DNA of 43,312 bases from a virus (IMGVR_UViG_3300020214_000036:1-43312); one strand, 5' to 3'. Shown: positions 1,451 through 33,813, counted from the stretch's first letter. A program made the numbers and translations. The notes: generated by a model not told the origin, from the letters alone.

Positions 1451-1460
1451 ATTATTTATT
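1451..1460 (-). promoter_or_regulatory. Late-promoter box AATAAATAAT
   Basis: Read on the minus strand this is AATAAATAAT, 20 nt before the GTG of the fibre gene ending at 1430. It resembles the T4 late -10 element TATAAATA and the other boxes in this window. Its first nine bases are also the last codons (Asn-Lys-stop) of the upstream 142-aa gene. Confidence 0.55.
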
Positions 1461-1880
1461 CGTGTCTATTTCAATTTGTAGTGGTTTAACGTCTTTACGT
1501 TCGGCTTGGACTAAATAAAAAAATTGTGGGGCATGCGCACCGGCAACTTCAAAATAAGTATCAGTAATAGTTTTAATCCAAAGTGATTGAGATTTACCAA
1601 CGGGAGTAATTGTAATTGTAATAGAAGCTTGGTTAGCGAGTCTTGCCCAATATTCTGGAAAAAAAATACGTTTTTGTTCGCTCTTGCCCCTAATGTAGAT
1701 TCCGTGCTCTGGGCCCTCTAGGTTACCGTGTGCAAGTTTAAATCCTGGCCGGGTTGGGTGGTCAATCAAGAACTGCTTGGTTACAGCTGAAAAATTTCCA
1801 TTATGATTAATATCACCGGACGATTCATTATACGTCATGTGAGTACTAATATTGACCTGTTTTAATTTTACCTGCGCCAT
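1452..1880 (-). CDS. Small tail-fibre tip-like structural protein (142 aa)
   Basis: Encodes 142 aa starting MAQVKLKQVN. The middle part has a pattern I recognise from the C-terminal ends of cyanophage and pelagiphage tail proteins: FSAVTKQFLIDHP, then a GPEHGIYIRGK segment, a PEYWARL segment, an ITITITPVGK strand, and a final YLVQAERKD segment. In those proteins the module usually ends a long fibre; here it is a gene of its own, so it may be a separately encoded tip or a chaperone-like subunit. It lies between two fibre genes. It has an exact TATAAATA late box upstream and a strong bidirectional terminator between it and the gene to the right, so it appears to be transcribed from its own promoter. 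Exact function unknown. Confidence 0.7.
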   Translation of the reverse strand: MAQVKLKQVNISTHMTYNESSGDINHNGNFSAVTKQFLIDHPTRPGFKLAHGNLEGPEHGIYIRGKSEQKRIFFPEYWARLANQASITITITPVGKSQSLWIKTITDTYFEVAGAHAPQFFYLVQAERKDVKPLQIEIDTNK

Positions 1881-1906
1881 TTATTAGATTGGATCTTTTC
1901 TATAGA

Positions 1907-1914
1907 TATTTATA
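1907..1914 (-). promoter_or_regulatory. Late-promoter box, exact TATAAATA
   Basis: The minus strand reads TATAAATA exactly, identical to the T4 late-promoter consensus. It lies 26 nt before the ATG at 1880 and downstream of the terminator at 1941-1966, which is where a new transcription unit should begin. Confidence 0.7.
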
Positions 1915-1940
1915 CTCCTAGTTTGGATTTTGAACAATAA

Positions 1941-1966
1941 AAAAGCCTCCATTATAGGAGGCTTTT
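1941..1966. terminator. Bidirectional rho-independent terminator
   Basis: A perfect 10-bp stem (aaaagcctcc paired with ggaggctttt) encloses a 6-nt loop. A T-run follows on both strands: six T then ATT on the minus strand, and TTTTATTT on the plus strand. It lies in the gap between the 478-aa fibre gene and the 142-aa gene, so in practice it stops minus-strand transcription from the 478-aa gene. Confidence 0.85.
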
Positions 1967-1989
1967 ATTTAAAGTTTTAAATTTAAGTA

Positions 1990-3426
1990 TTAACTAACTC
2001 TATATGTAATTTCAATCTCATCAGATGTTTCAAGTGCATAGGGCAAGCCAGTTACTCTAACTACTGAATTTGTACCCTGTGGCCAAACCCAGTTTGTTGT
2101 TTTCTTAAGAGAAACTCCATTAACTGTAACCAGCAATATTTCGGCGGCGGCATTTGCTAAAGTAATATCGGTATTTGCACCTGACGATGCAGTTAAGTTA
2201 GTAGCCTGATGTGCAATTAAATCGTTATTACTAACAGTAAGAGTTAATGTATCAGTTGTACCTGCACTTACTACAGATCTAGTAAAGGTTAAACCTTCGC
2301 CGGTTGCAAAGTTTAGAGTATCTGTATCTATGTCAAAACTTGCAGCGGAACCTCCCTCGACTGCAATTGCCAATTGGCTAGCTGCGCCGATTAGGGTCTT
2401 AAGATTAGCAAAGGTGATCTTTTGATTAGTTGCCCCGTTTGCCGTAACGCCAGCAATAAAATCTGAGTCTGTGATTGAAGTAACTGTACTTAATTCAGAA
2501 AGGTCTAGATTAATTGTTAACGTTGAACTACTAAATGCTGTATCAATTCCGTTAGTTCCACCGGCAATGGTTAAAGTTCCACCTAATGCAATATTACCTG
2601 ATCCAGAGTCTCCAGCAAAAGTTAGATACTCATTTAAGATCATATCATTTGTAATACCATTGGCTTTAACGAAAAGTTGATCTGATCCATTGATTCCGAT
2701 TGAAGAATCGTCGTAGTTAACATTAAATTTGGTGCCAGTTCTGGTTAAACCTACGCCCGCTTCAGCAACGCCTGCTGCTGAAAATTGTGTAAAATCTAAT
2801 TCTGTCGTTCCACTCGAGTTGGCAGTAAAGTCCCATAAATTGGTTACTGCTCCATTGGGTGAAGCTAATACCCATCCGGTATCAGAAAAAACTGTTCCCT
2901 CTTCAACGAAAGTAAACAGACCTCCGCTAACTTCGCCAGATGGATCATTGTTTGCATCAGAGGCTCTTGTAAAAGTACCACCACCGTCGTAGTCATAAAT
3001 ACCATTAATTTTCCTTTTTCCTGCTGTACGAGTAGCAATTAAGACTCTGTCTCCTGCGACTAGGGTTACTCCGTCAAATACCAAATCTTGCATTACTGCG
3101 CCGCTTGTAATATTAGTATATAGGGTTTGAATATCCAGAGCCACACCGCCAAGCGTGTTAGTTATTAGGATGGCTGGGGTTCCGCCGTCGGCTGAATACG
3201 ATTCAGTATAGATTGCGCGAACCGATTTTTTAACATCTAGCCCGGTTGCAACCGCATCAACATATTCTTTATTTACTGCGTGGCTTGCTTGGGTAGGAGC
3301 GGTATTTACAATTAGGCTAGCCGCTGGGGTGGTAATGGTACCAGTAATCGTTACTGAACCTGCACCACTAAGCTTTCCTAAAGAAACCGAAGTATCCTGT
3401 ATTTGTTTACCTTTAATTAGTGCCAT
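1990..3426 (-). CDS. Tail fibre / structural protein (478 aa)
   Basis: Encodes 478 aa beginning MALIKGKQIQDTSVSL. Around residues 60-75 it has HAVNKEYVDAVATGLDVKKSV, a phrase common in cyanophage and other T4-like fibre proteins, followed by a DGVTLVAGDRVLIA segment and an NGIYDYDGGGTFTRASDAN segment, which form a beta-rich module repeated across phage fibres. The last third is Thr/Ser/Asn-rich and ends with an EIEITYRVS strand. No enzymatic motif is visible. Its own late box lies at 3453-3461 and a strong terminator follows it, so it looks monocistronic. Likely a distal fibre or baseplate-attached protein. Confidence 0.75.
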   Translation of the reverse strand: MALIKGKQIQDTSVSLGKLSGAGSVTITGTITTPAASLIVNTAPTQASHAVNKEYVDAVATGLDVKKSVRAIYTESYSADGGTPAILITNTLGGVALDIQTLYTNITSGAVMQDLVFDGVTLVAGDRVLIATRTAGKRKINGIYDYDGGGTFTRASDANNDPSGEVSGGLFTFVEEGTVFSDTGWVLASPNGAVTNLWDFTANSSGTTELDFTQFSAAGVAEAGVGLTRTGTKFNVNYDDSSIGINGSDQLFVKANGITNDMILNEYLTFAGDSGSGNIALGGTLTIAGGTNGIDTAFSSSTLTINLDLSELSTVTSITDSDFIAGVTANGATNQKITFANLKTLIGAASQLAIAVEGGSAASFDIDTDTLNFATGEGLTFTRSVVSAGTTDTLTLTVSNNDLIAHQATNLTASSGANTDITLANAAAEILLVTVNGVSLKKTTNWVWPQGTNSVVRVTGLPYALETSDEIEITYRVS

Positions 3427-3452
3427 TTTTTATAGAGTTCTTTTTATTTTAG

Positions 3453-3461
3453 TTATTTATT
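3453..3461 (-). promoter_or_regulatory. Late-promoter box AATAAATAA
   Basis: The minus strand reads CAAATAAATAACT, 26 nt before the ATG at 3426, with an A-rich leader and no clear Shine-Dalgarno sequence. It matches the boxes in front of several other late genes here. Confidence 0.6.
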
Positions 3462-3504
3462 TGTGTCGATTTATTCATAATTTGATGTCATTCTGCATAG
3501 GGAC

Positions 3505-4434
3505 TTATTGGGTAAGGGTTACCTTTCCTCCTGAAAAATACTCTAATAGGATAATGTCAGTGGTCTCAAGCCCATGCTCTAAGTAGGCCGGCTTAACATA
3601 CAAGGAATCGCCGGCTTCAACTTGAGCTAGCAAAAGTTGAGTACTTCCGCCGTTTCTGCTAAAAAAGAATGGCGAAGTATTTGAATCAGTTAAGAGCCTT
3701 CTTATTCCATTTACACTTATACATACAGTAGATTCCAAATGAATGGCTTGTGTAATTGGTGAGACTGCGGCCAATGAATAGGATCCAACATTTGACGTAT
3801 ATGCAACCTGGGTAGCATTACCCTCCTGGGCCCGTGGAATTATTGGTGAAATTAGGCTTGGAATAACCCTGATTTGACCTTGCATTACGGTAGGGTGAGC
3901 GGTGCATACATAGAACAAATCGTCTGGCGCATCAAAAGGCACCGTCCATAAGATGTGACCGCCGCTACCCTGAGAGTTTGATCCCATTCCAGTTGGAGGC
4001 ATTCCTACTGAATACACAGAATTGTCAGCTTTTCTAATTTGAAGTGTGTGGCCGATACTTGCTGAAACTTTAAATTTGTATAGTTCCCCTCTAAAAACAT
4101 AGAGAATGGGGTTTGAGTTATTTCCACTACTAAAGTCCGCCGCATTGTTAATTAACCATGCGGTGTTGCTTGGATTTGCAACAAATGTTATTGTTTTTGC
4201 GCCGGATGCTGAAAATTCAACAAGATCTGCGTCAGTTACCCCGTCCTTAAACCAATAGAGCAGGTTATCGACTCCATCTGCAAGGCGAACTTCCATTGTT
4301 GGGAATCTGATTGCTTGAGGAATTGCAGCAAGGGCTTCGGCCGTAGTTGCGTATGGCCCAGAATAACCATCAACTGGTACTGGATTTACTGGGGTAATAC
4401 CATAAGGTAACTGAAGGCCTGGTGTAAAGCTCAT
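3505..4434 (-). CDS. Tail structural protein with cupredoxin-like domain (309 aa)
   Basis: Encodes 309 aa. The N-terminus (residues 1-75) has FTPGLQLPYGITPVNPVPVD followed by a WFKDGVTDADLVEF phrase, a module I associate with T4-like cyanophage tail proteins. Residues about 80-191 look like a cupredoxin: an ILYVFRGELYKF strand, GH at 128-129, a VPFDAPDDLFYVC strand, then AHPTVMQGQIRV. The potential type 1 copper ligands are all present in order: His129, Cys177, His180 and Met184 (C-x2-H-x3-M). The C-terminus is beta-rich with no known motif. The gene starts 2 nt after the 743-aa fibre gene ends, so the two are probably co-translated. Copper binding is inferred from sequence pattern only. Confidence 0.75.
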   Translation of the reverse strand: MSFTPGLQLPYGITPVNPVPVDGYSGPYATTAEALAAIPQAIRFPTMEVRLADGVDNLLYWFKDGVTDADLVEFSASGAKTITFVANPSNTAWLINNAADFSSGNNSNPILYVFRGELYKFKVSASIGHTLQIRKADNSVYSVGMPPTGMGSNSQGSGGHILWTVPFDAPDDLFYVCTAHPTVMQGQIRVIPSLISPIIPRAQEGNATQVAYTSNVGSYSLAAVSPITQAIHLESTVCISVNGIRRLLTDSNTSPFFFSRNGGSTQLLLAQVEAGDSLYVKPAYLEHGLETTDIILLEYFSGGKVTLTQ

Positions 4435-4436
4435 GG

Positions 4437-6668
4437 TTATGCGATAGTTATTTGGTGACGATGATTGCTACTATAAGGAATAGCATTGCTCAGCGTATAA
4501 ATTTTATAAGCAACCGGCGTGCCCCCTCCGTCATTTACGTTAAAGGTTGACATTACATAGTTTGCAGTAAGGTTTGCATATACCGTATCTAAATCTAATA
4601 CTTCAACTAGTGAATTTGTAGATGGCATTGCAACCGTAAATATTTTTTCGGTTGATCCAGTATTTAGGACAAAGGTATTACCCTCGTCGTTAAATCTTTT
4701 ATTTTGAAGGGCGCGGACTGCCGCGGAATTTGCTGGTGCACTTGCACTGGATCCATAGAATATCACGTGTTTATAGAGTATTGTGTAGGTTTCCACTGAA
4801 ATTGTATGAGAATCTGTAACGGAAACTTTATAGGTTGCACTAGTTGCAGCCGAAGTAATTGAGGTGTCTGTATAATTACTTAAATTACCACCAGCGGCAG
4901 CAAGCGCTTGGACCGGGCCAAGGTCTACATATGTTCCGCCATTAAATAAAACTGCATATTGATAACCGCTAATTGGAACGTTAATGCTGTTTCTGGTCGC
5001 AGCACCCTGTAAAACGGATGAAGTATTTCCTCTTTCTCTTATTTGATTGCTTTCAATTCCAAGCGCAAGCGCTGTAGCCGGTGCACTAAATAAAATACTT
5101 GGCGATTGATATGCTTGAGGAGTAATTGTAAATGAGGCAGTTGCGGTTGCACCAGCGTTATCTGTTACAATATACTGATAATTAAAGGGTTGAGTATTAA
5201 ATGCGCTATCGGTTAGCGTATGAGTATAAGTTGTTGCACCAACATTAGATAGTATTGTTGTCCATGGCCCAGCGTTGTTTCGTCTTGCTTGTAAAATCGC
5301 AGTGGTTGCGTTTGCGCCCAGCGTATTAATAACTTTAGTAAAGTTTAGCACATTTGAAATTGCAGTTTGGTTAAATAAGATGGTTGTTGGAGAAGTAAGA
5401 GTAACAGTTGGAGCAATTGGCTCCTGTGAAATAAGATTAAAAACCTCCTCCGCTGTTTTACCAGCAGCAGGTACCGTTTGACCATTTGCATAGTGACCTA
5501 ACGTTTTTCCATTAGAAAGACTTACAATAAAGTCTGACTGAAATGTTGGAGGGGTGATGGGCTTTACGAAAACGGTTACTTTATCAGTAGATGGATCTGC
5601 AACTGCAACGATTGAGGAGGCCAAACTTACTGGGCCCTCTTTAAAGTCAATCCGCTCCATCTTGACCAAGTTAGTAGCAGGATCAGTTGCTGCAATATCA
5701 ACGCCGTCGTTGCTTACAATAAATGAAGACACTGCATCAATTGCATCTTGATCAACTGAAATTGAAACCTGTTTTGTAGTAGGATTAAAATTAACATTTA
5801 CGCCGCCCTCTCCAGCAATTCGGATTATATCATTAACAGAGGCAGCTTCGAATTGAATTGCTCCGCTTGCACTTGCAATCTTTGAAAAGCCTGGGGTTTG
5901 AACAGGTGAATTAATAGTAACCTTATTGGTTGCATTATTAAATGAAACCGTTGTGTCTCCGGTACCCTCAATTCTTAATGTGCTTTCGGGTGCAATTGCG
6001 CTTAACTGAATATTTCCTACCGCATTTGCAATTTGACTAAATGAATTAGTATTTGCTTGGGCAGAACTAACGATTATCTTTTTATTTGGCGCGTCCAGCG
6101 TTATGGTTGTACCCCCGGATCCTTCAAACGCAAGTGTATCGGTTGCATTACTTGCACCAAATATTACGGTGCCTTGTGAATTTGCAATGCCGGTAAAGGC
6201 CGTTCCAACTGGACCGGATGCGGCTTGGCCGCTTGATAATTTTACCCAACCGTTATCATCAGTATAACCATAGAAACCTTCGCCGGCTGGTGCGGTATCA
6301 TTTGCATAGATTACATCTCCAACAATACCTGCCGAGGCAAGTTTACCGGTATTATCCTGGAGTCTAAGTAGAGGAGTTTGAAAAAGATTAGCGAGAGCAG
6401 ATTGGGTAGTTAGGACACCATCTGCGTCCACCTCCATTTTAATGGAGCCGTTTTGCACAACCCTAATTGATGAGCCGGCTGTCAACGTTGTCAGCTGAAC
6501 CTGATTTACAGAGATATTATTATTGGTCTCGTCAAATGAAATCGCTGTAAGAAATGACTGGATTGCCTCCTGTAAGTTATCAAAGTTCTGATTGGAGGTC
6601 AATATACTTGAGCTCAAACTCGAATCCGATAAATCTGTAATATTGGTTAAATTAGAGTAGACTCCCAT
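4437..6668 (-). CDS. Tail fibre with threefold internal repeat (743 aa)
   Basis: Encodes 743 aa. Residues about 158-203, 210-254 and 261-304 are three copies of a roughly 45-residue beta module with the pattern FxxIAxxxGxIxFxA...DTLxIEGxGGTTVxFxxxTxKVxIS, probably one blade or strand set each. Before them is a GIVGDVIYANDTAPAGEGFYGY segment with an NGWVKLSS phrase typical of phage fibres. The second half (about 400-600) looks Ig-like, with alternating strands such as YTHTLTDSAFNTQPFNYQYIVTD. It has its own late box at 6688-6696 and is followed at 2 nt by the cupredoxin-domain gene. Structural role is clear; location in the tail is not. Confidence 0.75.
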   Translation of the reverse strand: MGVYSNLTNITDLSDSSLSSSILTSNQNFDNLQEAIQSFLTAISFDETNNNISVNQVQLTTLTAGSSIRVVQNGSIKMEVDADGVLTTQSALANLFQTPLLRLQDNTGKLASAGIVGDVIYANDTAPAGEGFYGYTDDNGWVKLSSGQAASGPVGTAFTGIANSQGTVIFGASNATDTLAFEGSGGTTITLDAPNKKIIVSSAQANTNSFSQIANAVGNIQLSAIAPESTLRIEGTGDTTVSFNNATNKVTINSPVQTPGFSKIASASGAIQFEAASVNDIIRIAGEGGVNVNFNPTTKQVSISVDQDAIDAVSSFIVSNDGVDIAATDPATNLVKMERIDFKEGPVSLASSIVAVADPSTDKVTVFVKPITPPTFQSDFIVSLSNGKTLGHYANGQTVPAAGKTAEEVFNLISQEPIAPTVTLTSPTTILFNQTAISNVLNFTKVINTLGANATTAILQARRNNAGPWTTILSNVGATTYTHTLTDSAFNTQPFNYQYIVTDNAGATATASFTITPQAYQSPSILFSAPATALALGIESNQIRERGNTSSVLQGAATRNSINVPISGYQYAVLFNGGTYVDLGPVQALAAAGGNLSNYTDTSITSAATSATYKVSVTDSHTISVETYTILYKHVIFYGSSASAPANSAAVRALQNKRFNDEGNTFVLNTGSTEKIFTVAMPSTNSLVEVLDLDTVYANLTANYVMSTFNVNDGGGTPVAYKIYTLSNAIPYSSNHRHQITIA

Positions 6669-6687
6669 CTATGCCCAGTTGTTTTTG

Positions 6688-6696
6688 TTATTTATT
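6688..6696 (-). promoter_or_regulatory. Late-promoter box AATAAATAA
   Basis: The minus strand reads GGTTAATAAATAACAAAAAC, 19 nt before the ATG at 6668. The core AATAAATAACAAAAA is shared with the boxes before the genes ending at 27301 and 33789. Confidence 0.65.
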
Positions 6697-6714
6697 AACC
6701 AGAACGCTCTCTTC

Positions 6715-8025
6715 TTAAAGAGCAATTTCTGTCTTAGAATCTTTAGTTGAGTGGTATGATAATGGCGATCCTACAACGAGACATTCGGTTAAATTTGCAG
6801 AAACCTGCATGGTGGGCTTGCCCTTAATTGTTGATTGCTGAATAGTATTGATTCCGGCTTGATTAAAATTACAATCGGAGAGGCTAGAATATCTAATATC
6901 ATTTTTATCAAATAGTGTGCATTCTAAAAGTCGTGAACTCCTGACTTTACAGTTTAAGAGAGTACAGCTGGAGAGCTCTGCCTGGATTGACGAATCAACA
7001 AAAACAATATTTGATAGGTTAAATCCATTTTTAATTCGGCCCTCTAAAACCTCAACCTGATTTGAACTAGAATTGTAATTAACCTTTCCTCGAACCAAGC
7101 CGCCATAGGTCACAAGATCAAAGAGTTTTTCTCTAATAAGATTAAACTTTGACTCAAGCACCTGTGGTCTTGGATCCATGTCCATTGTTAAGTTAATTAA
7201 TGGATATTTGGTTGAAAAAACTGAATATGATTTAAGACCCGAAAGGTGTGACTTTTGTTCAGTTAAAATTTCTTTAATTTTAGCCCTCTCAGTCTCTGAA
7301 TAGATTGAATTTGATTTTAGTGTCGTAAAGAGATTTTCTATAACTAAATTTAGGAGCTCAACCGCTTGTGTAGGCTTTTTCTCGTAGTCTTTACCGCCAA
7401 TATATTTGACTGTAATAAAACCTTCTGAGATTTTTTCAAAGTCAATTCCAAACTGTTTTGATCTTGGAAAACTAAACTCCATTTGGGAAGAATAACTTCC
7501 ACTTGGTACAGTTGCTTCAGCAATAAATTTATTTTTAGGGTATATTAAATTTACTGAGTGCTTATAGATCTTGCTAGATCGGATCTCTTGTGGCCAAAGT
7601 TCAAAGGCTTTGGCTTCGTTGAAGCTTAGCAAAAATTTAAACTTGTTTAGCTGAGTAACCCTAGCGCCCTCATTCATTTTAGAAAATCCCAAATTAATTT
7701 TGGCTTTACATAATTCATTGGTATAGCCGTTTTCCTCAATAAATTTAAAGGATTTAATTAGCGCATTGACCCCTTCGTAATAATAGACCGGCCCAATTGT
7801 CAGTCTCTTCATTTTAAAGCCATTATTATAGAGATTAGTTATTCTGGCCCCATTTTCTTGAATGGGTTTCCATGCATCTCTTGTTGCACCAATTTCAATT
7901 TCTCGGTGTAGTGCGGTTTGTGCCCTTTCGGCAAGCTGTTGAATTGATTTATTCGAAAAGAAATCAACGGTTAGGACGAATTGTGCGGCTTGCACATGTT
8001 CTCTATTTTTAATATCTAGGATCAT
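6715..8025 (-). CDS. Unknown protein with pentapeptide-like C-terminus (436 aa)
   Basis: Encodes 436 aa. The N-terminal two thirds are mixed alpha/beta, with a GVNALIKSFKFIEENGYT phrase, a CKAKINLGF strand and FKFLLSFNEAKAFELWP. This order of motifs faintly recalls phage proteins annotated as amidoligase-like, but I cannot confirm catalytic residues. Residues about 330-410 form a ladder of short repeats (SSIQAELSSCTLLNCKVRS and onward) like a pentapeptide or right-handed beta-helix. Unlike the fibre neighbours it is not Thr/Gly-rich and carries more charge. The start codon lies 10 nt before the stop of the 687-aa gene upstream, so the two are probably expressed together. Function unknown. Confidence 0.6.
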   Translation of the reverse strand: MILDIKNREHVQAAQFVLTVDFFSNKSIQQLAERAQTALHREIEIGATRDAWKPIQENGARITNLYNNGFKMKRLTIGPVYYYEGVNALIKSFKFIEENGYTNELCKAKINLGFSKMNEGARVTQLNKFKFLLSFNEAKAFELWPQEIRSSKIYKHSVNLIYPKNKFIAEATVPSGSYSSQMEFSFPRSKQFGIDFEKISEGFITVKYIGGKDYEKKPTQAVELLNLVIENLFTTLKSNSIYSETERAKIKEILTEQKSHLSGLKSYSVFSTKYPLINLTMDMDPRPQVLESKFNLIREKLFDLVTYGGLVRGKVNYNSSSNQVEVLEGRIKNGFNLSNIVFVDSSIQAELSSCTLLNCKVRSSRLLECTLFDKNDIRYSSLSDCNFNQAGINTIQQSTIKGKPTMQVSANLTECLVVGSPLSYHSTKDSKTEIAL

Positions 8026-8029: not shown

Positions 8030-8038
8030 TATTTATTA
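8030..8038 (-). promoter_or_regulatory. Weak late-promoter-like box too close to start
   Basis: The minus strand reads GATAATAAATATTTTATG, so the box lies only 4 nt before the ATG at 8025. A T4-type late transcript starting 5-7 nt downstream would be nearly leaderless. It overlaps the stop codon of the 687-aa gene. Either a leaderless late promoter or chance. Confidence 0.25.
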
Positions 8039-10099
8039 TCTGTTTATACCTATGTAAGGAATATTTAGGCGAGGCCGGCAGTTATCAATTATTCTAAGAA
8101 TCGATTCATCTCTAATAAACAATTGGCTAATCACAAAGTCATGATCTTCCTCCTGCACCATCGTGTTGAATACTCTAATGTTTGCAATATCAATTGATGA
8201 GGAGATTAGTCTAAAATTATCATTAATATTAAAATCAAATGAATTTGCCCCGGTTAAAATCTTTGCCGAGTTATGGATTTGAGTAATATCGTTAAAGTTG
8301 TTTGAATTGGCTGGGTCCTGTGCAAATCCATAGATTGTAAGCGCGGTTTGTTTAAATTGGCTAGAGATGGGTACAAATATTGCATACCATTTATCAATTT
8401 CAAGGGTAACTTGATTAAATTGAGTAAGAGTTGAATTTATTTCAAGCCTTACCGTTACGTTTTTATTGGTGGAATTGTTTATTGGGACGACGCTGGCACT
8501 TAATTTTAACCCTTTATTTTGAATGTTGTCACACGCGTCAATAAAATTAATAGAACCCGTAAGAGAATTAATTTTAAATAGTGCAAAAAACGTTAGATTA
8601 GATTTATCATCCGCTAATTTTCCAAGTTCATTATAAACAACCCCATAGTCTCTAGTTAAAATATTAATGTGGCCGCCGGCGTCTTCTTGGAAAGCAAGTT
8701 GGCTAGGGGTAAAAAAGTTTGAATCGGCATACCTTTCAATTTTAATATATCGGCCCAATAGCGGATCTCCTGAATTGTATGGGCCTCTAATTTTAATAGG
8801 CGCCCCAGCGCTCAAATCATAAGTTGTTAATCGATACCCTGCCCATAGTGAAAAAAGGTTAGATTCTTCGTATGCAATGAGGGTAAATTTGGTTGCGGGA
8901 TCTTCGTATTTAACAGACTTATTTGTAAAATTTTGAGTAGCTGGAATAACTTTAATTGGCTCGCTTGGAACACTTTTACTTTCATAATAATATTGAATTA
9001 GCGGTGAATAATTATAGGTTAGGGCTAATTGTTTGATTTTAAGATCTGGATGGAGTGCTTTGCGAGTTTCATCAAATCGGGTTGAAATGGTTTTAAACTG
9101 TTGAGGCATTACTGCGTCTTTGGTTTCTTCAATCATTTGGTCTGCAAAAAGCTCATCTGTGCTTGTAATAATATTATCTAAAAACGTACGGTCTTCGGCT
9201 TTCATCATCATATCAATGTTTGGTTGGAATTTTACCAATTGAATTTTCCAATAAACGGGTTCTTGCATAATACCCCGATAGAGATATGTGCCCTGTATTT
9301 CGTACATTCGATTAGTTAGTGGAAAGTAGAGAAAATCCTTTTTACGAGGGTGCGCGGTTGCGCCAAAGATTGTTTGAAAATATTGGTGATCGAGATGGAT
9401 TTCAAATGGCATCTCAAAATCAACGCCAAACTCTGCATATGTGGGCTTGTTGTCTGGAAATTTATTTCCGGGTACAAGGACCTTAATACACTTTCGACTA
9501 ATTGTTTTAAATAGCGTCCACTCTTTGAAAACATAGTCAGCAGAGTCTCGGTCGGGTTCAGTTTTAAAATAGATAACTTCATGCCCAAATAGTTTATTTG
9601 TGTTAAAGCTTAGTTGTTTAAATATATTTACAGCTTGATCGGCGGCATATGGATTAAATGACATTGTGCCTGTTGAAATAAGAGCTGGACAAACTTCATC
9701 ACTACATGTAATACTTGGTGTAAATAGGTTGGGCGCAGAATCCGCTGTGACTACTTTAAATTTAATTTCATTTACTACAATTGGGTTAGCAAGAGGATTG
9801 TGCGTTGTATCGTTGTATTCATATTTTAATTCAACAAAAAGATCTGAATTATTAAAAGTTAGGGCCGTAATATCTGCAGTGGTATACCACAGAGACCAGT
9901 TTCCACGGTCAGTTGAATATCTAAATTTTTTGATTAAATAGTTTGGATCGTTGCCGTTTAGATCAACGTCATCAATAAATTGGGTAATAGAGTATGCTCC
10001 TGGCAGGGGCTCTTTGGTTGAAAAGAGTCGATAGTTGCTGCTAAAAGTCAGACTTGATTTAGAGGCATCTGGAATAAGCTTTAGCGTGACGGTCTGCAT
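8036..10099 (-). CDS. Structural protein with LamG-like C-terminal domain (687 aa)
   Basis: I prefer the ATG at 10099 (MQTVTLKLIP); an in-frame TTG directly before it would add one residue. The N-terminal 130 residues look beta-rich, with a WSLWYTTADITAL strand pattern seen in phage baseplate and neck proteins. The C-terminal part (about 480-640) has the features of a concanavalin/LamG fold: LTFFALFKINSLTGSINF, an LKLSASVV strand, a WYAIFVPIS strand, and an IANIRVFNTMV strand near the end. Such domains often bind carbohydrate in phage adhesins. It has its own late box and lies divergent from the 266-aa plus-strand gene. Substrate unknown. Confidence 0.6.
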   Translation of the reverse strand: MQTVTLKLIPDASKSSLTFSSNYRLFSTKEPLPGAYSITQFIDDVDLNGNDPNYLIKKFRYSTDRGNWSLWYTTADITALTFNNSDLFVELKYEYNDTTHNPLANPIVVNEIKFKVVTADSAPNLFTPSITCSDEVCPALISTGTMSFNPYAADQAVNIFKQLSFNTNKLFGHEVIYFKTEPDRDSADYVFKEWTLFKTISRKCIKVLVPGNKFPDNKPTYAEFGVDFEMPFEIHLDHQYFQTIFGATAHPRKKDFLYFPLTNRMYEIQGTYLYRGIMQEPVYWKIQLVKFQPNIDMMMKAEDRTFLDNIITSTDELFADQMIEETKDAVMPQQFKTISTRFDETRKALHPDLKIKQLALTYNYSPLIQYYYESKSVPSEPIKVIPATQNFTNKSVKYEDPATKFTLIAYEESNLFSLWAGYRLTTYDLSAGAPIKIRGPYNSGDPLLGRYIKIERYADSNFFTPSQLAFQEDAGGHINILTRDYGVVYNELGKLADDKSNLTFFALFKINSLTGSINFIDACDNIQNKGLKLSASVVPINNSTNKNVTVRLEINSTLTQFNQVTLEIDKWYAIFVPISSQFKQTALTIYGFAQDPANSNNFNDITQIHNSAKILTGANSFDFNINDNFRLISSSIDIANIRVFNTMVQEEDHDFVISQLFIRDESILRIIDNCRPRLNIPYIGINR

Positions 10100-10118
10100 C
10101 AAAAATTGCGCTTTCTTT

Positions 10119-10126
10119 TTATTTAT
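10119..10126 (-). promoter_or_regulatory. Late-promoter box ATAAATAA
   Basis: The minus strand reads GGATAAATAAAAAG, 19 nt before the ATG at 10099. It forms a divergent pair with the plus-strand box at 10153-10160, only 26 nt away. Confidence 0.55.
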
Positions 10127-10152
10127 CCAAGTTTGGCCCGGTTGCTACTTTA

Positions 10153-10160
10153 AATAAATA
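10153..10160 (+). promoter_or_regulatory. Plus-strand late-promoter box AATAAATA
   Basis: AATAAATA lies 19 nt before the ATG at 10180, the same spacing as for the minus-strand genes ending at 6668 and 10099. It supports late expression of the only plus-strand gene inside the structural block. Confidence 0.55.
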
Positions 10161-10179
10161 GTAATAAAGATCCGGCACC

Positions 10180-10980
10180 ATGAAGACTAATCTCCATGAG
10201 CCAGTCCTGGATCCACTCTGGCTGGCCAATTCAAAATACGTGGACCTTGAATACTATACGTATATTATGTTAGGGGCCAAGCAAAAGTACCTTGCCTCAC
10301 TAAAATCTGGATCTTTTTCTAGATTTCACGAAATACTTTTCAACTATCTAAATTTAAACACAGTAATTGTTGATAAAGGAGTATATGATTCTGGATATAA
10401 TTTTAAAAAGAACGAGCGCCATGTAATGGAAATTATTGCCTCGTTGACTAGAAATCATGAGGAAAGGGGAGTAGAAATTTTAAGAATGGCCTCAACCTTT
10501 TTAGCAGAAACTCTAACTGAATACTTGGACGTGATACTAGATAAGCTAGCCTATACTAGACTCTATTTTAATTCATCCAAAATTCATAAACTTGATACAA
10601 TTTATATTGCAACCACCCAAAATAAATCGACGCTAAACCATATTTGGAAAATATCTAAACAAAAGACGGTGCCATTTTTGATTAAAAGCGACCATCTTCT
10701 ACAAATTAACGAATTTGATTGTGAGGATGGTGAATTTAACGAATTACTGACTCAGGTAAAGCCTGAAATTACTGACTTTTCTGCAAAGACCAATGTTTTA
10801 GTTATTTCTTCGGTTAAAAAAATAAAGGATAAAAAACTGTTTGAATTGGCGCTAGCCTCGATTGTTGCTAATAAGCTCCTGAATCACTCTAGTGGCTTTA
10901 ATTCTAATATTCTATTGGATATTAAGTCAACTTTAGAAAGAGGCCAGGTGATCCCCTATAAGCTTAGGGCAATTGGATAA
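10180..10980 (+). CDS. Conserved-looking phage protein of unknown function (266 aa)
   Basis: Encodes 266 aa. The protein is mainly alpha-helical with many charged residues, unlike the beta-rich fibres around it. The N-terminus has DPLWLANSKYVDLEYYTYIM and a KYLASLKSGSFSRFHEILFNY segment; the middle has EERGVEILRMASTFLAETL. The C-terminal half alternates short strands and helices (TIYIATTQNK, NVLVISSVKK). There are no signal peptide, membrane segment or obvious catalytic motifs. It is the only plus-strand gene between 1 and 34912, is led by its own late box, and converges on the 401-aa gene with a 34-nt gap. Assembly factor or chaperone for the neighbouring tail proteins is possible but unsupported. 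Confidence 0.7.
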   Translation: MKTNLHEPVLDPLWLANSKYVDLEYYTYIMLGAKQKYLASLKSGSFSRFHEILFNYLNLNTVIVDKGVYDSGYNFKKNERHVMEIIASLTRNHEERGVEILRMASTFLAETLTEYLDVILDKLAYTRLYFNSSKIHKLDTIYIATTQNKSTLNHIWKISKQKTVPFLIKSDHLLQINEFDCEDGEFNELLTQVKPEITDFSAKTNVLVISSVKKIKDKKLFELALASIVANKLLNHSSGFNSNILLDIKSTLERGQVIPYKLRAIG

Positions 10981-26278: not shown

Positions 26279-27301
26279 TTAAATGTTAAAGATGGCATTT
26301 GTTTCGCCAACTAAAACAAGTCTTGACTGGTTCGCACCAAAGTTTGCTGGAAGGTTTGCACTGTTTTTAATGGTTCCAACATTCATTAGAGTAACAGACG
26401 AATTAAATAAGTTACTGCTCAAACCAACTACAAATTGAGTAGCCAGTGTTGTGTGGGTAGCGTCTAATCCAACTGCATCTTGATCCATGATTGCAAAATC
26501 GTGACCAATAATCCTAATTTTATGCGTATTAGCGTTAGTAGAGGCAAAGGTTTCGTATGTTCCACTAACATAAGTTGTAGTGCCACCGCTTACGTAAGTA
26601 ATGGCTTTTACCATGATTGTAAATTGCTGACCATTACGAATTGGGGCATTTGTATCGTTTTTAAGAATAATATCGATGCCGTCAGTAATTGTGTTTGAGA
26701 AAGCTGCTCCACTGTAAAATGAACTAGCATCTAGGGTTAAAATAATTAAAGATTTACTGGTTGAAGTTAGAGTAACCTCGGCTTTTGCGCGGTTTGCACC
26801 AGTTACCTCAGTTAGAACCTTTGTAACCTCTTCTTGGCTATTAGAAAAACTTCCGGTAATATTAACAGACCCGGCAAGGTTTGCCTGCCCGTTCGTTGTA
26901 ATTTGACCGGTAAAGGTTGAAGCACCAGTTATTGTTAATCCGGCTGAGGTAATCGAAGAATTTACTGAAAGGGTTCCGGTTGTAATTTTACCAACGGTTG
27001 CGTTATTTACCGTTTCGGTTTCAAATTTAATTAAATCCGCGGTACCGTTTGAATTTTTAAAGAACAACTGTCCATTTTGGATAGTTAGAACTTTAGTTTT
27101 TAACTCTGTAAGCGGAGTTAGTGTAGAATCTGGGTCTACTCCGATCTTTTTATCGGAAAGATCGATTTTTAAATTGTTTACAAGATCTTGCAGCTTACTT
27201 TTTAGCAATCCAATATTGCTATTTGAGATAACTCGCATGTCAGAAACATAAGTTGTCTCTAGAATCTCTTGTGTAGATAAGGATAGTGCAACAAAAGCCA
27301 T
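26279..27301 (-). CDS. Fibre/structural protein (340 aa)
   Basis: Encodes 340 aa starting MAFVALSLSTQEILETT. The N-terminal 60 residues are helical (LLKSKLQDLVNNLKIDL) and could anchor the protein; the middle is a repetitive beta region with TITGASTFTGQITTNGQANL and GSVNITGSF, a type of beta-repeat typical of phage fibres and of head or neck decorations. The last part has TFVVGLSSNLFNSSVTLMNV-like strands. A clear late box lies 18 nt before the ATG. I take it as the first gene of a six-gene operon continuing to 11015, because gaps downstream are 0-22 nt. Confidence 0.7.
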   Translation of the reverse strand: MAFVALSLSTQEILETTYVSDMRVISNSNIGLLKSKLQDLVNNLKIDLSDKKIGVDPDSTLTPLTELKTKVLTIQNGQLFFKNSNGTADLIKFETETVNNATVGKITTGTLSVNSSITSAGLTITGASTFTGQITTNGQANLAGSVNITGSFSNSQEEVTKVLTEVTGANRAKAEVTLTSTSKSLIILTLDASSFYSGAAFSNTITDGIDIILKNDTNAPIRNGQQFTIMVKAITYVSGGTTTYVSGTYETFASTNANTHKIRIIGHDFAIMDQDAVGLDATHTTLATQFVVGLSSNLFNSSVTLMNVGTIKNSANLPANFGANQSRLVLVGETNAIFNI

Positions 27302-27319
27302 TTGTTTTTCTATTTTTTG

Positions 27320-27328
27320 TTATTTATT
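27320..27328 (-). promoter_or_regulatory. Late-promoter box AATAAATAA
   Basis: The minus strand reads CTAATAAATAACAAAAAA, 18 nt before the ATG at 27301. It lies in the 92-nt gap after the 274-aa gene and probably starts the operon running to 11015. Confidence 0.65.
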
Positions 27329-27393
27329 AGCAGAGTATTACCTCGTAAATAATAGGTAACTAGCCCTTTTATACTAAAACTTAGAATTTAGGC

Positions 27394-28218: not shown

Positions 28219-31200
28219 TAGGTGTGGTTAATTTTTAGGTTTGCTATTCTAACTCCAAGCGCAGTCGGGATAACTCGTATTTTAACTGAATGGGTGGTAT
28301 TTGGATTAATCGTAATATTTTGAATAGATGAGGTTGTTGTTTCATTTTGACCTGAGCCTAGTACAAAAATAAAATCTGTCGAGTCTTGATCAATAGTTAT
28401 CTCATTAATTTTAAATCCGGTGTTTCCGGAATTTGTAATTGGCACAGTTATAGTTCTAGCCTCTCCAACTTCAGTCGAGTTAAAAATAATGGGCTGATTT
28501 GCAGAGCCGGCGGTAAAAAGCGGGGACTGGACCTGTACTCCAATATTAACAGTGTTTGAATAGGTATTTGATGCGCTTTTTACTCTGATTGAAAAAAGAT
28601 CGGTTCCTGTATAGTCTTGATTTGGAATATACCTAATTGTATAATTGGTTATAATTAGGGTTCCATTAGAGGACGGGGTAACTATTTCAAGTTGACCAAA
28701 CGTAGATCCATTCAAATTAACATAGGATAAAAGATTAATATCTGAAAAAATATTTCTTCCTACTATCTGTTGAGGCACCTGTAATAAAATCGGTGCACTA
28801 GGTTGAACTAAGAGTGTACTATTTATTGTAGTTGTCTGTTGAGTAGCGCCGCTATCGTTAGTCGCAGTCGCAGTAATTGTGTAGGTTCCGGTCGATACGC
28901 CCGTATATGTTATTGGAGTATTGGCAACACCGTTGCCTAGAGTTGAAGTAATTATGTAAGAATTTGCATGATTTGTAGTCACGCCAATTGTAACATTTGA
29001 GCCGGTTGTAACTGGTGTTGAAAATAGTGAAGGATTCAAAAATGAGATAATAGGGTATGGCGCCAACACAGTAACCGAAAAGTTTTTATTAAAGGTGTTT
29101 GATAACGTTGAGTTTTTAAAAGGAGAGGTGTAGGTTACTGTTAAAGTTGGAGTGATCTTTTGATTGGCTGGATTAATTCCCCATAGAGCAGAAAATGCGG
29201 TGGTTAAATTGTTTGTAATTATTGTTGGAGTAATGGTTGATCCACTTTGGGTTACTGCAACCCCATACAAATTATCTTCACTGAAGACTGGAATCCAGGT
29301 TTGCGGGCCCGGGAGTGCACTAACTTGTAAATTTGCAGAGGTCCCCTGTCTTAACTCTTGATAAGATAGATTAAGATCTTCAGTAGGGGTTCCAATAACA
29401 ATTTCCTTTGCTACACTAAACGGTGAATTATCTAAATATAAACCGAAAAGCTCTATTTTATAGTATCCTGAAATGCTAGGTCTAAATTTAATAGAAAGGG
29501 GCCCTGTCCCGTATTCAAAATAGCTCCATCCCGGAACAATTGTTTCACCTACACCAACGTCGAGTGTTGCCACCACCCACTCTAATTGACCTGGACCAGA
29601 CTTGGTTGAAATTCTCCATTGACACGAAGTAAGGTTTACTTGTTGAAGTTGAGCGGATATTTTATATGCGCCTGGGGTTGGATCCTCAGGTGTTGGTGTT
29701 ATTACTGAAACATAGGCTCGGTTTAAATTATTAGAGGGGAGTGTAATAAAATTATAATCAGCGGAGGTTCCGGTACTTCCATTAAGCGCAGTTGATTCAA
29801 TCGTTAGACTTGCAAAATTTATATTTGTGCCAGCTGGTGCTGTGGTAAAATTGGCCGCTGCTGAATAAACATAGGCCCCGCCCGAGCCTGGAGCCTGTAC
29901 ATATGCTTTTACATAATATTGAATATTAGGAACGAGCCCTTGTAGAATAGTTATTAAAGCGGTTGGGCTTACTTCTGAATTAAATGTGCCTGAATCTACT
30001 TTAACTACACCAGGTTGTCCGACTTGAAGATTATTAGAATTTCCAAGTTTATAGATAATTCCGTATCTTTCGTAAATTTCTCCTCCGCTATTTGTAAAAG
30101 TTGAGGCTATCGTTGCACCGATTGGTGTAATTTGGGTTAAATTTAGAATTGAAAATCCTCCTTGAGTACCTGTTGTAAATTGTCCTGGTTGGGTGGTGGA
30201 GCTTCCAGTTGAATTTGTAGCAGTTGCGGTAACTGTATACTGGGTATTGGGGGTTAGGTCATTAAACTGAACAGAAATACCCAGTGACCACGTTCCAGCA
30301 GGGTCAAATATTTGTCTATTATCAACTAGATTTCCGTTTTGAAATAGCTTGAATAATACACTTACAACTAGGCTACCCCCGGTATTAGAAATTGTTGTAC
30401 TAACATTCGCTGAAGTTGACGTAATGGCTTCAGCCGTCGGCACAGTCAAGGTTGCGGTTGACCCGCTTTGTGATGGTGTACATGTTTCATATTGAATTGT
30501 ATCTCCAATACAAGTTCCACCATTTGATGCAGGAGTTATTACATAACGAGTTTGGTATCTTTGATATGATCCATTAATAATAGTACACGGACTCCATTCT
30601 CCTGCAACCCAAGACTGCTGTGTTTCTCCCCATCCCCAGTTACTTAGTGTACAGTTTACTGGAGGTAAAGGCGGTGAACATGAACTATCGGTTGTGCATG
30701 TAACATATTCTGTATAGATGGTTATTCCAAACTGGGTTGGGTCAGATACAGGCTCGCCATTTATTAAAATCAAAGGCTGTGAGCCTGAACAGACATATAG
30801 CGATAGTATTCCGTTTTCAACAGAATGGATTCCCCAGTTGCTAGCGGAGATTGTGGTAAAATTCTGGGCTCCGTGCGGAGTATATTGAAAATTGACCGCA
30901 CTAGAGTTTACAGCGGCTGTATCAATGTTTATTCGATAACAGTATGACGTGGTCGAACCGCCGCCACCGCCGCCTCCGGTTGAAGGCGCGCACTCGCTGT
31001 GTGCGGCGCATGAAGTAATTCCTCCAGTTAGAACCAACCCGTGCTCTGTAAAATCCGAGAATGCCCCAAATACAAAAAGGCTGGGTGATATTTCTGAGCA
31101 AAAATAATAGGTGGTCTCGGTTGATCCGGAAGTTGACGCAAACGTAAGGTTCTCTAAATAAACCGTAGTAGATGCATACCCACCCGGCTCTCTGTACACC

Positions 31201-31268
31201 AATTCTTTTCCCAGTAAATCAACTGAAAACGGTATACTTAATTGATAACAAAATGCAGAGACTGGCAT
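28218..31268 (-). CDS. Multidomain adhesin-like virion protein: Cys modules, TSP1-like, FN3, HYDIN-like (1016 aa)
   Basis: Encodes 1016 aa with a beads-on-a-string layout. Residues 6-93 and 108-198 are two related four-cysteine modules (Cys 7/57/87/93 and 109/159/190/196) joined by a short poly-Gly linker. Residues 206-263 resemble a thrombospondin type 1 repeat (GEWSPC, YQRYQTR, SNGGTC, and a closing Cys). Two FN3-like domains follow (about 271-480, with LTPNTQYTVTATATN and LVPNIQYYVKAYVQA). Further on are Ig-like segments, a cadherin-like domain near 810-910 (TIRYIPNQDYTGTDLF), and a final HYDIN/ASPM-like domain (VPITNSGNTGFKINEI). Linked to both neighbours by tight spacing. Probably a surface-exposed baseplate or fibre protein that binds host glycans or proteins. 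Confidence 0.7.
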   Translation of the reverse strand: MPVSAFCYQLSIPFSVDLLGKELVYREPGGYASTTVYLENLTFASTSGSTETTYYFCSEISPSLFVFGAFSDFTEHGLVLTGGITSCAAHSECAPSTGGGGGGGSTTSYCYRINIDTAAVNSSAVNFQYTPHGAQNFTTISASNWGIHSVENGILSLYVCSGSQPLILINGEPVSDPTQFGITIYTEYVTCTTDSSCSPPLPPVNCTLSNWGWGETQQSWVAGEWSPCTIINGSYQRYQTRYVITPASNGGTCIGDTIQYETCTPSQSGSTATLTVPTAEAITSTSANVSTTISNTGGSLVVSVLFKLFQNGNLVDNRQIFDPAGTWSLGISVQFNDLTPNTQYTVTATATNSTGSSTTQPGQFTTGTQGGFSILNLTQITPIGATIASTFTNSGGEIYERYGIIYKLGNSNNLQVGQPGVVKVDSGTFNSEVSPTALITILQGLVPNIQYYVKAYVQAPGSGGAYVYSAAANFTTAPAGTNINFASLTIESTALNGSTGTSADYNFITLPSNNLNRAYVSVITPTPEDPTPGAYKISAQLQQVNLTSCQWRISTKSGPGQLEWVVATLDVGVGETIVPGWSYFEYGTGPLSIKFRPSISGYYKIELFGLYLDNSPFSVAKEIVIGTPTEDLNLSYQELRQGTSANLQVSALPGPQTWIPVFSEDNLYGVAVTQSGSTITPTIITNNLTTAFSALWGINPANQKITPTLTVTYTSPFKNSTLSNTFNKNFSVTVLAPYPIISFLNPSLFSTPVTTGSNVTIGVTTNHANSYIITSTLGNGVANTPITYTGVSTGTYTITATATNDSGATQQTTTINSTLLVQPSAPILLQVPQQIVGRNIFSDINLLSYVNLNGSTFGQLEIVTPSSNGTLIITNYTIRYIPNQDYTGTDLFSIRVKSASNTYSNTVNIGVQVQSPLFTAGSANQPIIFNSTEVGEARTITVPITNSGNTGFKINEITIDQDSTDFIFVLGSGQNETTTSSIQNITINPNTTHSVKIRVIPTALGVRIANLKINHT

Positions 31269-31269
31269 A

Positions 31270-33789
31270 TTATTGTGCGGTTACCCTAACGGTAAAATTA
31301 TTTGTATTTGAGCTTTCCTTTGCGGTTGCGTATATTTTATTATTTACCACATTATATCTAAATTTAGAGATGGCGCTATGTGTTGACGTGTTTAGCTGCT
31401 CTGCTAAATTTTGGGTACTCGTATATGTAGGGACGGTAAAGGGATTGTGCAAGCCCAATCTTATTTTGTGGCCGGCTGTTGGTGGATCTATTTTAAATCC
31501 TTGTAAAAAGTCTGACTGATATGATAACTGATAAAATTTAGTATGGAAAAGATCACCAATTTTTGCATCTGAAAGATCACTCATTCTGGGCTTAATTGAA
31601 TTTTCACCCACTCCCCACCCGTATGCATAGTCTGATACTAGGGTTGGATCAGATACTTCTTTGTACTCGCCAGTTAATTTATCTTTTATTTTAGCTTTGG
31701 TGGGCGATGTATTATTACTAAAATTAGTCGAATAATAGGCCCAATCAAATATTTCTTTTTCTAACCCAAGCAAGCCTATTCTTTGTGTAAATGACGGAAT
31801 TGTAACATTTGGATTAAATAGGTAGCTTCCTCCTATATCTGCGAAGGTAACGTTAGTTAGGTCTTTAAATTGATAACGATACTTATCTGATGTTCTAGTA
31901 AAGCCTACGGTTGACGCAATGGTAGGTTTGACTGTAAATTTAATAAAGTCAACTGAGATCCCAGCGAATTGATCATACACCCTCAATTCAATTAAGTAGT
32001 CTCCGGTATATGGTAAAAAGTGAACAATATTGTTAAAATCGTAAATCGACCCGCGGCCTGTCCACCTATATTGGTTTGGCGCATTTTTGGAGATAATCCA
32101 TTCAGCATCAACTAAATTTAGATAGGTGATAAGGTCTCTTACCTTGGCGCCCTCGGTTTCAAGGTCTTCGAAGGTAACGCCATCATAATCTAACATTTGG
32201 TACTTGGGTAGATTTGCTTTTAATATGATTGGGCAGCCGATTTGTGTAGGCTCAGTTACCTCGCCGGTTGACCAATAGTAATTTCTCCCATGATTTTGCC
32301 ATTCTTCGTTTTTAACTTCGTTATAAAATACATTAACTGCTTGAATTAAAGCTTTATGCTGTTGTGAAGAATAGTTTTGACTGTTTTCATATGGATTAAC
32401 TTCTGCGGCAAAGGTTCCATCTTCAGCTTTTCCTGTATTGAATGAGTATTTAGGAAACCCAGTTAAAATTTTCTTAGGATTGCCAGTTTCGGCTTGGGAA
32501 GAATAGTATAAAGGCCGTATATCTCTAATATATGGAACTGCGATGGTTGAGGTTGGTTGATCGATAGAAACCTTTATCTTTGTATTAATTTCAAGACTTC
32601 TGGTTTGAACTTCATCTGTCCAATGCCTAATATTAAATTTTTCAAAAAATATAAATTCTCCGATAATATCTCTAATGATAACATGGATAGGTAGAATTTC
32701 TCTTTTTATCTTTTTAGCAAGGCCGCTTAACTTATAAAATATTTCAGCTGGGGTAAAATCCGTAGTTTCTACGACTTCTGGTAATCCGTCATCGTCATAA
32801 TTATCACTAGGTTTTGTGAATTGATAGCATAGTGCAATAAACGAGGTTTTCTTAAATTGATTTGATTCAAGTACAGCGCCACCGGTTGAAACGTGGACCA
32901 TATTATCAACTTTGCCATCATCTAAAAAGTCAGTAATGTTGACGAGCGCAAATTGGCTAAGCGCCGCGGACGTATTATTAATATTTTGCCAAAATTCTTT
33001 GACTTCTAAAATATTTTTATATCCAAATAGATTAATAAAATTGTTTAAGCCTTTGTATGTTCCAACATATGGAAAAACCTGGTCTCTGTTAACGAGTATT
33101 TCCTTTCTGGCTTGATCAATTTGTTGCCAATCTGGTAGAGCCTCTTTAATATCGTAGTTTTTTAGTAATTGTGCATCGTCTATGTGGAAGTTTATTCCAA
33201 AGTTATTTAGCCACAGTTTATAGCGGGAATCTTCATCTAAACCTTCTCCATAGTAATCTAATTCTAAAATTTTAGTTGAGGTTGAAACCGTGCTACCTGT
33301 TAAAACTTGATGGTATGCAAATAATTTTCGTTGATATATTTTTTCTTCATAAGGAGAAAATGCAACATTAACTTGAAGAGGGATCGGGATATCTAGAACA
33401 GAGGTTGACCCATTTGCAAACTGTGAATGTGTAATAATTACCTCATTTACTTTGCTAATGTAGGGGTGAGCTGTATCGCTATTTCCAGTAATATCCTGCT
33501 TTACAATGTAAAGAAAAAATGGATCTTCTCCCTTTGGATCGGCTAATTCCCATTTAAATAGGATTCTTTCATTTTGTGCTAAGATTGGAAATTTAAATCC
33601 AGATTGAGTCGACTCTACTAAAAATAGCTGGCGACTATCATATAATCCTACTGATATTGGCTTAATGTATTCTCGGCCATACCACCAGTTAAGGGGTTGG
33701 AATTCTTCCTTTGTTTCATCGAACTTTGTCGTCTGAAAGTTATAGTTTTCTCCAAATTTATCAAAAAACAGTAGATTCGATAGTACCAT
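31270..33789 (-). CDS. Baseplate/tail protein with tail-I-like motif and PKD-like domain (839 aa)
   Basis: Encodes 839 aa starting MVLSNLLFFDKFGENYNFQT. It is rich in aromatic residues and has little Thr/Gly bias, more like a baseplate wedge than a fibre. Residues about 241-267 (YVGTYKGLNNFINLFGYKNI) resemble the conserved segment of P2 gpI-type tail proteins, in which a 'GT..GL...l.lfGy' phrase is characteristic. Residues about 570-630 look like a PKD/Ig domain (YRWTGRGSIYDF, GDYLIELRVYDQFAG). A late box lies 15 nt before the ATG. It heads a three-gene operon with the 1016-aa and 274-aa genes. Gene I homology is weak and needs profile search. Confidence 0.6.
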   Translation of the reverse strand: MVLSNLLFFDKFGENYNFQTTKFDETKEEFQPLNWWYGREYIKPISVGLYDSRQLFLVESTQSGFKFPILAQNERILFKWELADPKGEDPFFLYIVKQDITGNSDTAHPYISKVNEVIITHSQFANGSTSVLDIPIPLQVNVAFSPYEEKIYQRKLFAYHQVLTGSTVSTSTKILELDYYGEGLDEDSRYKLWLNNFGINFHIDDAQLLKNYDIKEALPDWQQIDQARKEILVNRDQVFPYVGTYKGLNNFINLFGYKNILEVKEFWQNINNTSAALSQFALVNITDFLDDGKVDNMVHVSTGGAVLESNQFKKTSFIALCYQFTKPSDNYDDDGLPEVVETTDFTPAEIFYKLSGLAKKIKREILPIHVIIRDIIGEFIFFEKFNIRHWTDEVQTRSLEINTKIKVSIDQPTSTIAVPYIRDIRPLYYSSQAETGNPKKILTGFPKYSFNTGKAEDGTFAAEVNPYENSQNYSSQQHKALIQAVNVFYNEVKNEEWQNHGRNYYWSTGEVTEPTQIGCPIILKANLPKYQMLDYDGVTFEDLETEGAKVRDLITYLNLVDAEWIISKNAPNQYRWTGRGSIYDFNNIVHFLPYTGDYLIELRVYDQFAGISVDFIKFTVKPTIASTVGFTRTSDKYRYQFKDLTNVTFADIGGSYLFNPNVTIPSFTQRIGLLGLEKEIFDWAYYSTNFSNNTSPTKAKIKDKLTGEYKEVSDPTLVSDYAYGWGVGENSIKPRMSDLSDAKIGDLFHTKFYQLSYQSDFLQGFKIDPPTAGHKIRLGLHNPFTVPTYTSTQNLAEQLNTSTHSAISKFRYNVVNNKIYATAKESSNTNNFTVRVTAQ

Positions 33790-33804
33790 TAACTTGGCTT
33801 TTTG

Positions 33805-33813
33805 TTATTTATT
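33805..33813 (-). promoter_or_regulatory. Late-promoter box AATAAATAA
   Basis: The minus strand reads GGCTAATAAATAACAAAAAG, 15 nt before the ATG at 33789 and downstream of the late sigma gene stop. It shares the extended core CTAATAAATAACAAAAA with the box at 27320-27328. Confidence 0.65.

Follow-up and report, generated by a model that had tools for sequence, protein, structure and literature searches.

The analysed window, which is the entire virus record of 43,312 bases, carries on its minus strand a gene (33831-34250) whose 139-aa product the initial annotation had called gp55-like. Family, profile and fold all bear this out: the protein matches the late sigma factor family PHROG_234 (1.2e-18) and Pfam Sigma70_r2, its hhalign profile comparison with gp55 of T4, S-PM2, HTVC008M and phiM12 gives 98.5%, and the best PDB match of its AlphaFold2 model (pLDDT 69, with an unordered C-terminus) is T4 gp55 (7d7c, the gp55 open complex), which ranks above all other sigma factors, albeit with a modest fold match (E-value 0.005, TM-score ~ 0.6). 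The gp55 of the window and its relatives is short, having neither a linker of T4 length nor a recognisable clamp-binding end, and its C-terminal end is conserved ((E)S-E-I-Y/F-T/S-I/L), so that it probably binds a partner.

Eight short boxes had been listed in front of virion genes. On re-scanning the sequence all eight were found, with the earlier coordinates displaced by 1-2 bases, and the longer core AATAAATAAC is indeed common to four of them, three of which continue with AAAAA. Their wording needs correction, however, since the box at 10120 reads GATAAATA, i.e. neither TATAAATA nor AATAAATA, and TATAAATA is found once in the window (at 1907). The list was also incomplete, as two further boxes precede genes (42778-42785 on the plus strand and 8030-8037 on the minus strand). 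The T4 late box begins at -13 (PMC2988020), and +1 is therefore predicted to be the sixth base after the box, which is an A in all eight of the earlier-noted boxes. The sigma gene and the boxes are as follows:

33831-34250, minus strand: gp55-type late sigma factor, 139 aa (PHROG_234, Pfam Sigma70_r2, hhalign and PDB fold match)
33806-33813, minus strand: late box AATAAATA(ACAAAAA); predicted +1 at 33800, 11-nt leader; gene 31270-33789; kept in 35/35 related loci
27321-27328, minus strand: late box AATAAATA(ACAAAAA); predicted +1 at 27315, 14-nt leader; gene 26279-27301
10153-10160, plus strand: late box AATAAATA; predicted +1 at 10166, 14-nt leader; gene 10180-10980; divergent to the 10120 box
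10120-10127, minus strand: late box GATAAATA; predicted +1 at 10114, leader of ~ 12 nt; gene 8036-10102
8030-8037, minus strand: box AATAAATA, 4 nt upstream of gene 6715-8025; possible leaderless promoter, ambiguous in the window
6689-6696, minus strand: late box AATAAATA(ACAAAAA); predicted +1 at 6683, 14-nt leader; gene 4437-6668
3454-3461, minus strand: late box AATAAATA(AC); predicted +1 at 3448, leader of 21-22 nt; gene 1990-3426
1907-1914, minus strand: late box TATAAATA; predicted +1 at 1901, 21-nt leader; gene 1452-1880
1453-1460, minus strand: late box AATAAATA within the end of gene 1452-1880; predicted +1 at 1447, 17-nt leader; serves the open-ended tail-fibre-like gene 3-1430
42778-42785, plus strand: box GATAAATA, 6 nt upstream of the ATG of a conserved 46-aa ORF (42792-42932); leaderless class

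The box-free genes closely follow a preceding gene, as had been proposed, with the exception of the RuvC-like/gp55 pair, which heads a leftward unit that carries no late box. At the end of the window, a 45-aa ORF (42937-43074) is closed by a stop codon; we take it to be NrdB-like, i.e. similar to the beginning of the small subunit of ribonucleotide reductase. After it comes another reductase-like ORF (43100-43312), which runs off the window.

A scan with the 139-aa protein returned 35 loci, with sigma factors that are 82-99% identical. The genome-wide test needed such relatives, and was done with G007 (271 kb), G004 (253 kb), G003 (217 kb) and G010 (253 kb), with G001 included as a fragment (140 of 142 kb). 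G007 looks complete; its ends overlap by ~ 131 nt, and G008, G009 and G011 repeat its motif spacings in circularly permuted order. Its genes include one for tmRNA and 26 for tRNAs (L048 6300-6666; L041-L043). The view that the phage is quite different from T4 in gene content is not supported, as homologues of the T4 core are present in the relatives (in G007 gp17, gp18, gp20, gp23, gp4, gp41, UvsX, UvsW, gp46/47 and gp43; gene names were taken from T4/S-PM2 coordinates and annotation), four of which have the terminase in common. The window itself has only gp55 and tail genes of the T4-superfamily core, and the phage is, judged by its genes, a divergent T4-superfamily member seen via its tail and tail-fibre region. 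One further relative, L195 (CAIWBA010000291, 254 kb), has a terminase that is 85% identical and was binned in an uncultured Bacteroidetes MAG; it is probably a phage contig counted as bacterial, and its binning hints at Bacteroidota as the host.

The test for motif enrichment that had been suggested as a check gave a divided result: the raw counts are at chance, but the position upstream of gene starts is enriched. In the window AATAAATA occurs 11 times (8.7 expected from shuffled sequence) and TATAAATA once (6.7 expected), and these raw counts are no evidence for the motif because they are equal to or below the expectation. Nine of the 17 NATAAATA sites in the window, however, lie at most 45 nt upstream of a called start on the same strand, compared to 0/17 for the reverse complement; a tenth lies upstream of the cut-off gene 3-1430, and the other seven are intragenic, on both strands, with the AAC extension in none of them. 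In the five relatives, 33-61 of 51-96 NATAAATA sites lie upstream of starts (reverse complement 0-8). Among the 21 A5T2 heptamers ATAAATA ranks first for start enrichment in the window (9/17 versus 53/740, p = 7e-7) and likewise in all six sequences (the window and the five large relatives), in each of which an unbiased list of upstream 8-mers is topped by ATAAATAA. All 35 loci retain a box in the interval from gp55 to the following gene, with flanks and spacing that vary. Base frequencies up to 20 nt upstream of the box reveal no conserved position that could represent a -35 element, and the 8-mer list holds no second upstream word at a fixed distance. The observation of boxes before virion genes is confirmed by these sequences, in which it extends to the whole phage group. 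For example, the G007 orthologue (221353-222144) of window gene 10180-10980 is also boxed, at a spacing of 21, and the 46-aa ORF has orthologues in G003 and G001 with the box at a spacing of 7. Single boxes can fit promoter geometry poorly, as does that at 8030, where the orthologues of gene 6715-8025 have a box at a spacing of 4-5 in G001, G004 and G010 and none in G003 and G007.

The distance between box and start, for genes called with a simple ORF caller that prefers ATG, is bimodal. In the window and the five relatives taken together, a near class has 59 boxes at 3-9 nt (mode 5-6, with ATG as the start in 58/59) and a far class has 182 at 15-32 nt (mode 19-23), with almost no boxes in between. 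When ATG is counted after every box without gene models, 25 are found at 5-6 nt and 19 at 19-23 nt (6.4 expected). In the relatives, leadered promoters have an A at this predicted +1 in 86%, a G in 10% and a T in 1% of cases, and a purine at this position is found in 96% of leadered promoters versus 74% of the sites that are not upstream of genes. At a spacing of 5 the predicted +1 coincides with the A of AUG, and about a quarter of the boxes place it on or beside the A of ATG, from which it is predicted that the near-class late mRNAs are apparently leaderless. The predicted leaders of the far class are roughly 11-23 nt long (median 16), A-rich and without Shine-Dalgarno (SD) sequence, and SD-like sequence is below background in the phage group as a whole. 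Adenine in the far class peaks at -17 to -12, which is close to the adenines at -14 to -11 that aid initiation in the SD-free Flavobacterium (PMC6847099). Our reading is that the promoter would be placed either for no leader, or for a leader that just reaches the A-rich element. Since most host mRNAs of F. johnsoniae have leaders (PMC6847099), the leaderless class would be a phage feature and not simply a host habit. In the published literature that was searched, no description of leaderless T4-type late genes was found. The genes of this phage lack Shine-Dalgarno sequences, and the window also encodes an S1-domain RNA-binding protein (41590-42768; Pfam 4.2e-7); S1 is a proposed binder of A-rich leaders in Bacteroidota.

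The late-box genes of G007 include those for sheath, tube, baseplate wedge, head closure and endolysin. A box is missing from many known late-type genes, whose transcription has to come by read-through from upstream, and gp23 has no box immediately upstream in the relatives examined. A second motif, TTTAGTATAAT, precedes early-type genes of the relatives (protease, SSB, exonuclease, endonuclease, methyltransferase and nudix), and its spacing is also bimodal (~ 6, i.e. the leaderless-distance class, or ~ 15-30). The late box and TTTAGTATAAT mark different genes, with one G007 gene carrying both. In the window such a site lies at:

35102-35109, plus strand: second motif (TTT)AGTATATT, upstream of the exonuclease (35129) and GroEL genes; not a late box

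The orthologous exonuclease gene of G007 has the same second motif, at a spacing of 24, and the motif at 35102-35109 is a probable early or middle promoter. The GroEL chaperonin is phage-encoded (35897-37489; PHROG_5725, 1.2e-149). The relatives encode extra sigma factors, both RpoD-like (regions 1.2-4) and ECF-like, which suggests that the phages run a cascade of sigma factors: G007 has four, G003, G004 and G010 have two apiece, and the G001 fragment has one. Those of G007 lie at:

129391-129597, G007: additional sigma factor
125189-125368, G007: additional sigma factor
111509-111709, G007: additional sigma factor
180269-180433, G007: additional sigma factor

A common N-terminal tag (e.g. MKHIKLFEQFIAE, MKLKRFTQFVNEA or MNLIKGYSQWLNEN) was observed in 17-24 proteins per complete or near-complete relative (counted in G007, G004, G003, G010 and G001; loci L039-L096), with a 5-fold enrichment among late-box genes (p = 2e-12). 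It resembles the capsid targeting sequence of T4 (MKTYQEFIAEA), and T4 has five matches to the pattern; the tagged proteins are possibly a large head-packaged set. The tag is also present in the megaphages LR756500 and LR756504.

It had further been suggested that the phage uses the same late switch as T4. This holds for the sigma factor and the box only, as the sliding clamp gp45, the coactivator gp33 and the clamp-loader subunit gp62 are undetectable, and many boxes lie at leaderless distance. Family searches gave no match to gp45 or gp33 in six relatives, whereas the positive controls T4, S-PM2 and HTVC008M score strongly for both, and profile comparison found no gp45, gp33 (hhalign at most 2%) or gp62 in the complete 271-kb G007, although such searches may overlook a strongly diverged clamp or gp33. 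A T4 clamp hidden as a diverged ORF was considered and rejected, as G007 proteins below 700 aa give at most 5% probability in profile comparison. The gp44 matches are AAA+ proteins with another function; that in G007 (46276-48258), considered as a clamp loader, is an ATP-dependent protease. No DnaN-like clamp of the host type scored above the cut-off. T4 gp55 by itself supports no more than basal transcription (PMC7892883), and therefore the group would use gp55 alone with a longer conserved promoter (RATAAATAAC plus an A tract), a host clamp, or an unrecognised partner. In a comparative survey of jumbo phages, the T4-like group was reported to have both sigma factors and gp33 (PMC7824862), so that a loss of gp33 here would be a difference.

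Several other readings of the boxes have to be weighed against these results. Chance occurrence in AT-rich DNA, which would agree with total window counts that do not exceed the shuffled expectation, is practically out of the question, being already refuted by position, strand, heptamer ranking and conservation. It is very unlikely that the A-rich strings are translation-initiation signals of a host without Shine-Dalgarno sequences rather than promoters, even if SD-like sequence is depleted and A-rich DNA precedes the starts of box-free genes too, as it does in Bacteroidota (PMC6847099): the box is a fixed word of 7-8 bp at a variable distance (3-9 or 15-32 nt), which would miss the mRNA contact region in one spacing class and overlap it in the other, and it marks virion genes, is missing from the TTTAGTATAAT genes and outranks all other arrangements of its own bases. 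A translation element may well be present in the A tract that follows, but the box itself is not one.

ATAAATA resembles an AT-rich -10 element and a TATAAT-like motif is also present, from which one could argue that the boxes are host-type promoters (e.g. sigma-70 -10 elements) and that gp55 occurs in the window by coincidence. This is highly improbable, given that two motifs mark genes of different function (but for the single G007 gene with both), that no conserved -35 accompanies the box, and that T4, S-PM2 and HTVC008M, which all bear gp55, use the same word. The Bacteroidota promoter element TAnnTTTG was rejected as a driver of the phage genes, being scarcer upstream of starts than its reverse complement. 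As for the near class, it is unlikely to be an artefact of start codons called too far upstream, with leaders in reality on every late mRNA. The simple, ATG-preferring ORF caller and a few orthologues with other N-termini (e.g. G010 43055) would allow for it, but the ATG peak at 5-6 nt appears without gene models, 58 of the 59 starts are ATG, a spacing of 5 is observed independently in HTVC008M, and the second motif has a parallel spacing-6 class. In addition, the spacing class is kept across many orthologue groups and N-termini are conserved from M1 (M1 aligned to M1 in 69/71 orthologue pairs), which makes misplaced starts an unlikely cause.

What can be read from the DNA (the box with its position and conservation, the sigma gene, the gene classes, the bimodal spacing and the lack of a recognisable clamp or gp33) is very probably explained by the boxes being late promoters that are read by host RNA polymerase with the phage gp55-type sigma factor. 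In the mechanism that we infer, which covers transcription starts, timing, leaderless translation, host and clamp independence, gp55 would be expressed first, from the unit without late box. Host RNA polymerase with gp55 would then recognise the boxes at about -13 to -6, without -35 element, and would begin transcription at about the sixth base past the box, which is a purine in nearly all cases, so that virion, lysis and probable internal-protein genes would be turned on by many single boxes on both strands. Transcription would start in one of two places. A start on or beside the A of AUG would yield an mRNA that has no leader, and a start further upstream, mostly by 11-23 nt (median 16), an A-rich, SD-free leader just long enough to include the adenine element that ribosomes of Bacteroidota use. 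Late transcription would probably be independent of the gp45 clamp and gp33, with gp55 acting alone or with host or unrecognised helpers. More tentatively, a T4-superfamily lineage, probably living on Bacteroidota, may have lost clamp, loader and gp33 while keeping gp55, with late transcription independent of a phage clamp, a large share of leaderless late mRNAs, and gp55 as one step in a cascade of at least three phage sigma factors.

For a replication clamp that activates transcription, the late genes of T4 provide the model case. The role of gp33 in distant relatives has been called less obvious (PMC2988020). If the above is true, a gp55 system without recognisable clamp or gp33 shows what gp55 can do alone or reveals a new partner, and leaderless T4-type late genes link promoter spacing to the mode of translation start in the host. 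The box motif also offers a simple rule to mark late genes in uncultured large phages.

Late promoters of the gp55 type are established in T4 and predicted in KVP40, 44RR and S-PM2. Like T4 (PMC2988020, PMC7892883), the group has an 8-bp TATA box, predicted to lie at -13 to -6, without -35 and with an AT-rich region downstream, a sigma factor consisting of region 2 only, and promoters on both strands preceding virion genes. It differs from T4 in the first base of the box (A or G instead of T) and the extension to ...AAC, in having no recognisable gp45, gp33, gp62 or T4 clamp-binding tail and no SD, and in its predicted leaderless class (in T4, 0/29 boxes are in the near class). The shifted consensus NATAAATA noted in the initial annotation is present, but such a late promoter with relaxed first base is already known from cyanophage S-PM2 (PMC2984593), whose gp55 homologue is 34% identical; S-PM2, however, retains clamp and gp33, has a longer spacing and has only 1/30 boxes in the near class. 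Similar in spacing is the cultured Pelagibacter phage HTVC008M (NC_020484), with gp55, TATAAATA boxes and 11/16 boxes in the near class, eight of the 16 being exactly 5 nt before ATG (e.g. 6280, 7562, 19456, 31132, 49760), although it has clamp, gp33 and SD, and its box is followed by GT instead of AC. No clear excess of near-class spacing is seen in T4, KVP40, Aeh1, Cr30, P-SSM2, S-PM2 and PAU, and a slight one in Melnitz (4 versus 0) and XacN1 (5 versus 1). The closest sigma relatives in the annotated collection (40-41%) are those of the megaphages LR756504, LR756500, LR745206 and LR756502, of which the two examined share the short gp55 C-terminus ending in Y-x-I. In the very AT-rich LR756500 and LR756504 the box is hardly enriched upstream of starts, too weakly for these to be considered users of the same box, and megaphage late promoters may differ from those of the group. 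What appears to be new here is the apparently leaderless class of late genes, the seeming lack of both clamp and coactivator, and the phages as a group.
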